Assembly (NCBI GenBank): GCA_947627715.1
Contig: CANQXK010000002.1
Location: forward strand, 124,001-188,000
Length of the DNA stretch: 64,000 bases
Direction of reading: 5' to 3'
From: an uncultured Oscillospiraceae bacterium
GTDB taxonomy: Bacteria; Bacillota; Clostridia; Oscillospirales; Oscillospiraceae
Shown here in pieces: positions 4,932-55,072 of the stretch; positions within the stretch are counted from its first letter, which is position 1, and each line of letters starts with the position of its first letter. The notes under the pieces are model-generated. The model had not been told where the DNA came from, did not search any database, and saw only the letters and a program-made list of their open reading frames with translations. Both the position numbers and the translations under genes were made by a program.

Positions 4932-4969
4932 AATGTGTACTCCCTGATTCAGACTGTCAAATACTTAAA

Positions 4970-5156
4970 ATTCAATATTTTTTCCGGCGACCTGCGCGTC
5001 GGAAAAAATACCTTTTGTCACGCAAGCGTGCGGCCTTTCGGGCCGTGCGACGCAGCGTGACGGCAGGGAAATTTTTCTGAATTTCGCAGAATTCAGAAAA
5101 ATTTCCCGCACACAACCCCTTGGCATCGAAAGCCCATCAGGGCTTTCGAGCCAGTT
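4970..5156 (-). repeat. Modular hairpin repeat, copy 1 (after comM)
   Basis: Read on the minus strand, it begins at the comM stop. Hairpin 1 has a perfect 10-bp stem TCGAAAGCCC (5126-5149), hairpin 2 a perfect 18-bp stem (5066-5083 with 5090-5107, loop 6), a middle pairing carries a CGTCACGC/GCGTGACG pair, and hairpin 4 is an A/T-tailed stem near 4978-5010. Flanks ACTGGCT and TGCCA of hairpin 1 recur in the other copies. The gap to thiI holds nothing else. Confidence 0.85.
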
Positions 5157-11373: not shown

Positions 11374-11660
11374 ACACTGTCGGGAAAAGGCCGTGGGCCT
11401 TTCCCCGACATAGGGGAACGTGCGGAAGGCCCCGCGTGAATTTTGCGAAGTTCACGCGGGGCCTTCCTGCTGTCGCCCTGCGCGCCTCGTCGTCGCAGAT
11501 GCCGCTTAACCTCGCCTTCGCGCAAGCGCAAAGGTTCAGGCGCGGGCATCGCTCCTCCTCTCCCCACGCAATCTCCGATTGCGCGGGGACCCCATCGAGG
11601 CACACTGGGGCGGCAAAAGGTATTTTTTCCGACGTACGTGCCGCCGGGAAAAATACTACG
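11374..11660 (+). repeat. Modular hairpin repeat, copy 2 (after nifJ), carrying a nested second repeat
   Basis: Begins with the ACTG flank and hairpin 1 (15-bp stem with one mismatch, 11378-11410), then hairpin 2 with a perfect 17-bp stem (11424-11440 with 11451-11467; loop TTTTGCGAAG), then the CCTGCTGTCGC junction. The middle module of other copies is replaced here by the second structured repeat (11486-11595). It ends with hairpin 4 (ATTTTTTCCGACG ... CGCCGGGAAAAAT). Together with the hairpin before it and the terminator after it, this fills the 434-base gap between nifJ and the DUF308 gene; no gene is present. Confidence 0.8.
11486..11595 (+). repeat. Structured repeat B, copy 1 (nested)
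   Basis: About 110 bases that align end to end with 42128-42238. Blocks shared almost unchanged include CGTCGTCGC, CTCAGGCG-like and CGCTCCTCCTCTCCCCA. Its last stem is CCCC-a-CGCAATC-tcc-GATTGCG-c-GGGG (11562-11588). In the other copy the inner seven pairs are all different but still pair perfectly. Confidence 0.8.
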
Positions 11661-25722: not shown

Positions 25723-25905
25723 AACTGGCTCGAGACCCCGTTGGGGTCTCGATGCCAACGAGACGCGTGCGGAAGCATTTTTTGAATCGGAATTCAAAAA
25801 ATGTTTCCTGCTGTCACGCCGCGCGCGCCGCGAAGCGGCACACTTGCGTGACGAAAGGGTAATTTTTCGACGTACCTGCCGCCGAAAAATTAATTTGAAA
25901 ATCTT
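25723..25905 (+). repeat. Modular hairpin repeat, copy 3 (between permease 2 and the binding protein)
   Basis: Starts four bases after the permease stop. Hairpin 1: TCGAGACCCC / GGGGTCTCGA (25730-25752) between ACTGGC and TGCCA flanks. Hairpin 2: an AT-rich stem CATTTTTTGAAT / ATTCAAAAAATG (about 25775-25803). Then CCTGCTGTCACG, a middle pairing, and hairpin 4, TAATTTTTCGACG / CGCCGAAAAATTA. It sits inside an operon and fills the 225-base gap. Confidence 0.85.
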
Positions 25906-29854: not shown

Positions 29855-29893
29855 ACTGGCTTTGAAGGCCGCCCCATGGGGCGGCCTTTCAGT
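29855..29893 (+). terminator. Terminator of rubrerythrin, resembling hairpin 1 of the modular repeat
   Basis: AAGGCCGCCCC / GGGGCGGCCTT (29865-29888) with a T-rich tail. It begins with ACTGGCTTTGAA one base after the stop, the same opening as hairpin 1 of the repeat copies, so it may be a one-hairpin copy working as a terminator. Confidence 0.7.
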
Positions 29894-29894
29894 T

Positions 29895-30060
29895 TATAAA
29901 AGAAGCTGACGATTTTTTTGTACGCCGCAAAAATCCCCTCCTGTTTTGCGGAGTGTGCGCTGAAGCAGAAAAAAATTTCGGAAATGTCCGCGGACATTTC
30001 CGAAACTTTTTTCGCACGTTTCCCCCTGGCATCGAACTGCCAAAGGCATTTCGAGCCGGT
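29895..30060 (-). repeat. Modular hairpin repeat, copy 4 (after rplL)
   Basis: Read on the minus strand from the rplL stop: ACCGGCTCGAAATGCC / GGCAGTTCGATGCCA forms hairpin 1; hairpin 2 is a palindrome around GGAAATGTCCGCGGACATTTCC-like sequence (arms 29968-30005); a degenerate hairpin 4 with ATTTTTGCGGCG / AAAAAAT follows. It is the only feature in the gap between the convergent rubrerythrin and rplL genes. Confidence 0.75.
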
Positions 30061-44154: not shown

Positions 44155-44364
44155 TGGGCGGGTTCGCCAAAATCTCTTTTTCAAATGTTTTTCGCAAGGA
44201 CAAGCGCCTTGCGAAAAACCCCTTTTGTTTTGCGCAGTGTGCGGCAAGGCCGTGCGCGGAGCAAAACGGCAGGAAAAATTTCATGAATTTCGCAAAATTC
44301 ATGAAATTTTTCCACACGTTCCCTTATGGCATTGAAAGGCCGCTTCGCGGCCTTTCAAGCCAGT
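44155..44364 (-). repeat. Modular hairpin repeat, copy 5 (between ilvC and ilvD)
   Basis: The clearest copy. Read on the minus strand from the ilvC stop: hairpin 1 TTGAAAGGCCGC / GCGGCCTTTCAA (12 bp, 44332-44358) with ACTGGC and TGCCA flanks; hairpin 2, a perfect 19-bp stem (44272-44290 with 44295-44313, four-base loop); a middle part with TTTTGC-rich pairing; hairpin 4 GTTTTTCGCAAGG / CCTTGCGAAAAAC. Lies inside the branched-chain operon. Confidence 0.87.
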
Positions 44365-54995: not shown

Positions 54996-55009
54996 CTCTT
55001 ATTCCTTTT

Positions 55010-55072
55010 ATATTTTTCGTAAGGACACGCGCCCCTGCGAAAAATCCCTTATGCCGCGCGAGTGTGCGGCCT
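55010..55072 (-). repeat. Truncated modular hairpin repeat (after the HMA gene)
   Basis: Only the 3' part is present: GGCCGCACACTCGCG, then AAGGGATTTTTCGCAGGGG / TCCTTACGAAAAAT, which matches the end of copy 5. It starts at the HMA stop and fills the gap to the ATPase gene. Confidence 0.65.

Follow-up and report, generated by a model that had tools for sequence, protein, structure and literature searches.

A repeat built from a string of hairpins, which stands behind ilvC and several other genes of an uncultured Oscillospiraceae bacterium, is very probably a palindrome-targeting family of non-autonomous transposable elements (MITEs), a reading that includes an IS1182-type driver and the upkeep of the stems at the level of DNA. 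The hallmarks of a MITE are present: a small size (about 200 bp in most forms) with CAG..CTG terminal inverted repeats, duplications of the target site, and an autonomous partner with matching ends in sister species.

In the window, the whole 64,000-nucleotide stretch analyzed here, the five copies named in the original prediction, behind comM, nifJ, a permease gene, rplL and ilvC, were all found, and they fold into the hairpins that had been claimed. The ilvC copy (44155..44364, minus strand; covariance model match 44184-44364) belongs to subfamily A, whose members start with TGGC, and comprises the whole element with a decayed right end. Along the minus strand, the stop codon TAA is followed by ACTGGC, hairpin 1 (44327..44364), which by its fold wraps the left terminal repeat, the link GTGTGG, hairpin 2 (44272..44313), folded as a 19 bp stem with the loop TGCG, and CCTGC; next come the middle pairing, or hairpin 3 (44227..44267), formed by GTTTTGC..GCAAAAC around an inner GC-rich pairing, and hairpin 4 (44187..44219), whose A/T stem is terminator-like on the opposite strand only. 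An intrinsic-terminator test (a GC stem followed by a T run), applied to the ilvC copy only, returned no terminator on the sense strand and one antisense match, with shuffles averaging 0.8. The covariance model also matched subfamily A copies behind comM (4950..5155, minus strand), which has a recognizable right end TATTTGACAGTCTG, the permease gene (25724..25895, plus strand) and rplL (29908..30060, minus strand), the last with a degraded 3' half. The nifJ copy (11376..11657, plus strand) belongs to subfamily B, whose members start with TGTC; its hairpin 3 is expanded, and it stands behind a GC-rich hairpin. A sixth copy that had escaped the original prediction, a weak match of 26.5 bits at about 55009-55072 (minus strand), is truncated, retaining hairpin 4 and one half of hairpin 3, and directly adjoins a TAA stop.

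Two isolated hairpins in the window resemble modules of the element: a lone hairpin-1-like structure, recognized by eye past the stop of a convergent gene (29855..29893, plus strand), and a lone hairpin-2-like structure with a T run at 1076-1113 (CCCTGAATTTCGTAAAATTCAGGG), which is possibly an ordinary terminator. At the gathering score, Rfam matched nothing in the window except the ribosomal L10 leader (RF00557, 31053-31179, minus strand), which served as an RNA control, and at a loose threshold the ilvC copy drew 14 matches, mostly to miRNA models and all far below gathering. Among the 20 direct-repeat families examined, of at least 60 in the window, the element did not appear.

The element is about 200 bp long, reaching about 290 bp with an expanded hairpin 3. 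Its module order was originally described as fixed; genome-wide, the set of modules varies, with loci L007 and L012 retaining hairpins 1 and 4 only and L008 lacking hairpin 2. Beyond hairpin 4 the element extends to a right end, GAGTTTTTTGACAAACTG, which is intact in many copies, and the terminal inverted repeats read CAGnYTGTCRAAAAA..TTTTTTGACAnnCTG. The right end of subfamily B, TTTTTTGACAAACTG, is the inverse of its start. The expanded hairpin 3 of the copy at 11376-11657 and those of L009 and L146 hold a similar long GC-rich insertion, possibly a nested repeat.

A strict hairpin-1 pattern matched the 2.64-Mb source assembly 12 times, with no match for the reversed control. A covariance model, R1, was built from eight aligned and folded full copies, whose seed fold has a double change in 32 of its 61 pairs; it gave 96 matches in the source genome at E of 0.1 or less, both strands of palindromes being counted. 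The 52 source-genome loci tabulated divide into 26 with scores of 100 bits or more, 13 between 40 and 100, and 13 lower. Within the genus, R1 matched 32 of 34 genomes at E of 0.01 or less, with strong copies (best E-value below 1e-37) in 22 of them, namely the source genome (G000) and G013-G033, and with 0-7 weaker matches in each of the remaining 12; among scored candidates, 150 of 150 in G018 and 135 of 150 in G032 passed 1e-15. At the rank of the taxonomic family, R1 matched 112 of 250 genomes at 1e-6, and these represent 64 of 106 genera. Twenty out-of-genus matches from 18 genomes were inspected, ten as alignments; they share mostly hairpins 3 and 4 (L097 is without hairpin 3), 12 of the 20 run on into another hairpin and CTCTGCGAGG, and an end resembling TTTTTTGACAAACTG is seen in L093 and L105. 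In a scan of named records for the hairpin-4 pattern, from which records close to the source genome may be missing, the matches listed (at least 80) comprised 79 Oscillospiraceae MAGs and one Ruminiclostridium. Since a MITE requires its ends alone, the recurring core of hairpins 3 and 4 demands an additional function, and transposition by itself leaves its recurrence in other genera unaccounted for.

Mobility is evident from filled and empty sites, duplications and nesting. Downstream of ilvC, where 26 of 30 loci were readable (by eye, over 290 bases), 10 sites are filled and 16 are empty; at the rplL site, 11 of 30 loci were readable. Left and right flanks share at least 12 bp in 36 of the 71 copies with both ends located, and at least 15 bp in 33, compared with 3 of 1388 sharing 12 bp and none sharing 15 bp when left flanks were paired with the right flanks of other copies; the other 35 copies have no 12-bp flank match. 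The shared stretches are mostly an entire hairpin, the others being a single arm, part of a hairpin or unfolded, and 26 of the 36 fold on themselves to -9 kcal/mol or lower. Folding is likewise pronounced in flanking 40-mers, which fall below -15 kcal/mol in 61 of 71 right flanks, 49 of 71 left flanks and 25 of 133 distant controls, with median energies of -23.2, -21.4 and -10.4, respectively. Additionally, elements have landed in one another: at L128 a subfamily B element lies within hairpin 1 of a subfamily A element, and at L179 an element is placed between two hairpin-2-like hairpins. At L221:167 (plus strand), the loops of the duplicated hairpins are mutual reverse complements, as if one copy were inverted.

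The autonomous partner emerged from a search of the genus with PF13751, which matched 14 of 34 genomes, with no match in the source genome or G018. Among the 30 PF13751 loci, L231, L233, L234, L235 and L242 carry CAGnnTGTCAAAAAA at both ends; these five insertion sequences, of 1496-1511 bp and all in sister species, match the MITE at about 13-15 of 15 bases at both ends. Two further loci (L230:1369-3016 and L241:343-1990) hold a 1648 bp insertion sequence with related ends, CAGACTGTAGACAAA and CAGTCTGTCGACAAA, and a transposase ORF of 520 aa that is 37-40% identical to the first group, forming a second IS1182-like group; at the remaining loci, several of them cut by contig ends, both ends were not found. 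All seven insertion sequences with both ends located lie between exact duplicates, which measure 21, 23, 23, 23, 25, 31 and 31 bp; in the IS1182 family, duplications can reach tens of bases. The seven duplications are palindromic, with at least nine symmetric outer pairs in six of the seven, the palindrome of L234 being offset by one base. The family assignment comes from the L233 transposase, which passes the NCBIfam model NF033551.1 for IS1182 (380.7 bits, cut-off 270).

Relatives of the L233 transposase were found at 1e-5 in 15 of 34 genus genomes, with none in the source genome or G018; close, long matches occur in G014, G022, G023, G028, G030 and G031, many of those in G031 lying at contig ends. 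Multi-copy insertion sequences are often missing from draft assemblies, so the missing partner in the source genome is weak evidence, and the driver there may be gone, or another enzyme may act. Right-end matches in an unusual context, sought in G018, G000 and G032, numbered 24, with none in G000; around four of them (L204, L206, L208 and L220), no insertion sequence was recognized by eye in the roughly 900 preceding and 200 following bases. If a different transposase mobilized the element, its resemblance to IS1182 ends would be convergent, as the failure to find an IS1182 gene in G000 or G018 might suggest; this is improbable, however, given the near-complete match at both ends in five insertion sequences and the habit, common to MITE and insertion sequence, of duplicating hairpins.

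The position of the copies relative to genes was read from 103 copies (104 model matches in 100 loci), with genes called by a simple program that had been trained on the window sequence. Among the 52 copies of subfamily A, the upstream gene lies on the same strand in 49, on the opposite strand in two, and is uncalled in one; of the 49, 34 have the called stop at a distance of -1 to +5 nt, 11 have it deeper within the element, and four have it farther away (+9, +9, +53 and +162). The downstream gene is on the same strand in 39 of 48. Among the 35 copies of subfamily B, the upstream gene is on the same strand in 25, opposite in eight and uncalled in two; 21 of the 25 same-strand copies stand 19-158 nt past the stop, and 20 of 33 downstream genes are on the opposite strand. 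The 16 copies outside both labels have 14 upstream genes on the same strand, one opposite and one uncalled. The predicted bias in orientation and toward stop codons is therefore real, with same- to opposite-strand ratios of 49:2 in subfamily A and 25:8 in subfamily B (p 0.005). A symmetric palindrome target does not predict an orientation bias, which may reflect selection or a recognition linked to transcription.

The original prediction had also offered, as one of two readings, a non-autonomous mobile unit with a preference for stop codons. Its first half stands on the shared ends, duplications, empty sites and nesting; for its second half the outcome is mixed. A mobile element that targets the stop codon itself would fit the 34 same-strand subfamily A copies that hug their stops, but most same-strand subfamily B copies lie well past the stop, many of them behind a hairpin, the partner insertion sequences duplicate palindromes, and the two nested insertions sit at hairpins of other copies. 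Such a target is rejected for subfamily B and the insertion sequences, on distance from stops and duplicated palindromes, and not for subfamily A; as an account of the family we hold it unlikely. Because palindromes are duplicated at MITE and insertion sequence copies alike, the target appears to be not the stop codon itself but the palindrome, often a hairpin just past a gene. To judge by their sequences, the duplicated and flanking hairpins would be terminators. In subfamily A, most copies checked for ends, including that of ilvC, are without evident target duplication; duplicated hairpins were seen only at L046 and L175 among those checked. The tightness of subfamily A to stops, mostly without duplication, is unexplained by a hairpin target. 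Some copies of the family, L200, L207 and L209 among them, have a stop codon at the left, a hairpin at the right and no duplication.

The stems are paired to a degree normally associated with functional RNA. Of the 6196 cells in 103 distinct rows, 97.6% are paired, a figure inflated by an alignment fitted to the model (sliding controls drop to 42-55%), and double changes occur in 49 of 61 pairs (1087 cells). The covariation check proposed with the original prediction, run with the covariance model, thus lies far above shuffles, none of 500 reaching the observed value. Covariation of this kind is also a point in favor of the other original reading, a selected 3'-end RNA element that protects or processes mRNA in operons and whose pairing would be maintained by transcript-level selection. 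Two further observations point the same way: where an upstream gene was called for subfamily A (51 copies), it is on the same strand in 49, and the hairpin 3-4 core returns in other genera.

RNA selection accepts G-U and rejects A-C, whereas a DNA palindrome treats both equally. When counting is confined to pairs whose cells are Watson-Crick in 95% or more (54 of the 61), 5489 cells contain 32 G-U, 34 A-C and 22 other mismatches (39 G-U and 100 A-C in all 61 pairs, 6196 cells), and a second set of 74 further rows with 50 pairs gave 17 G-U and 22 A-C in 3561 cells (25 and 96 in all pairs, 4337 cells). By contrast, the L10 leader, taken from 20 loci of this genus (19 of them distinct) and counted over 33 pairs without a Watson-Crick filter, has 56 G-U, two A-C and 11 other in 626 cells, which differs sharply from the 32:34 of the element (Fisher p 6e-10); two mostly-G-U pairs supply 36 of 58 G-U cells (all 20 rows) of the leader, and the ratio without them is 22:2. 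As RNA selection favors G-U, and G-U is no commoner than A-C here, the palindromes seem to be kept at the level of DNA. In this element, covariation above shuffles does not imply RNA function.

Comparisons of copies at the same site in different species are dominated by double changes (537), beside single changes of 28 G-U, 40 A-C and 18 other, plus 21 broken doubles; these sums cover about 45 of 64 comparisons, chosen for having over 50 intact pairs that could be compared, which overlap one another and may in some cases join separate insertions at one site. The comparisons left out of the sums involve the truncated L113 and L119, and in most comparisons that include L113 there are two to four single changes of the G-U kind, which counts against the MITE reading. 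In the pair L126/L127, whose two flanks are both well matched, 19 double changes and one single change affect the 61 stem pairs, and the loops differ at 9 of 57 positions. Both stem arms thus change together, and the double changes in the same-site comparisons examined are scattered over several helices. On the G-U/A-C test, RNA protection is rejected as the primary cause and the selected RNA structure is not supported as the source of the covariation; with the evidence of mobility added, transcript selection becomes an improbable explanation, and a secondary RNA role is possible.

Under the preferred reading, a palindrome-targeting MITE, an IS1182-type transposase would act in trans and would recognize an extruded hairpin or cruciform, commonly terminator-like, just behind a gene. 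Each strand would be cut at one base of the palindrome, and repair would duplicate the entire hairpin. As hairpins come after stop codons, copies would accumulate at gene ends; such landing pads account for the position behind stops in part only. The stems might be rewritten in both arms by template-switch correction, by conversion between copies or by selection for extrudable DNA hairpins. In most copies of subfamily A, flanking hairpins would have disappeared or never been present, and the subfamily would persist directly past stops in operons, where transcription would pass, at least at ilvC, through a copy with no sense-strand terminator. A bolder scheme, which we advance tentatively and consider somewhat doubtful, is that transposition is guided by DNA shape: the IS1182-type transposase would read an extruded hairpin of any sequence, the palindrome would set the duplication length, an element that is itself a chain of hairpins, and whose core recurs across Oscillospiraceae, would rewrite both arms at the DNA level, RNA-grade covariation would arise without RNA selection, and one subfamily would have been adopted as an operon joint between a stop and the next gene.

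Insertion that duplicates an entire hairpin links the hairpin targeting of IS1182 to an abundant small element, and the element suggests a way in which the ends of genes and the joints of operons may be rewritten throughout a genus. It also carries a warning that mobile palindromic DNA can give rise to strong covariation, the usual argument for a functional RNA; counts of G-U versus A-C with a matched RNA control offer a simple discriminator.

Among the open-licence papers listed by literature searches, and judged by titles and the opening lines of abstracts, no such Oscillospiraceae element and no IS1182-driven MITE was recognized. REP and REPIN sequences are dispersed extragenic palindromes near gene ends; unlike them, the element does not consist of single 20-40 bp palindromes. 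Among the pneumococcal repeats BOX, RUP and SPRITE, BOX is described in the portion of PMC3049150 drawn on here as modular, often near 3' ends, and supplying a stop codon in 36 cases; the likeness, by description only and in a different host, lies in modular repeats near gene 3' ends. For YPAL/RU-2 of Yersinia, the part of PMC2229807 considered reports an intergenic, structured element of about 168 bp with variable duplications of 3-26 bp, targets that contain dyad symmetry or lie next to it, sites both filled and empty, and a proposed effect on upstream RNA. The present element resembles it by behavior only, being small and structured with variable duplications, symmetric targets and empty and filled sites; it differs in that the inverted repeats are internal in YPAL and here terminal, matching the IS1182 partner, and in its duplication of a whole hairpin of up to 40 bp and its core of four to five hairpins. 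IS1272/TnSha1, of the IS1182 family, targets hairpins, some of them terminators, with no primary sequence consensus, and makes a blunt deletion of the stem with no duplication, according to the sections of PMC4923244 used, which refer to a 2015 review on the point that this family targets palindromes. The partner insertion sequence shares with IS1272 its hairpin targets and, by NF033551, its family, but duplicates the palindrome exactly and has ends in common with the MITE. Within the portions of these sources considered, Yersinia YPAL, IS1272 and pneumococcal BOX are the nearest precedents.
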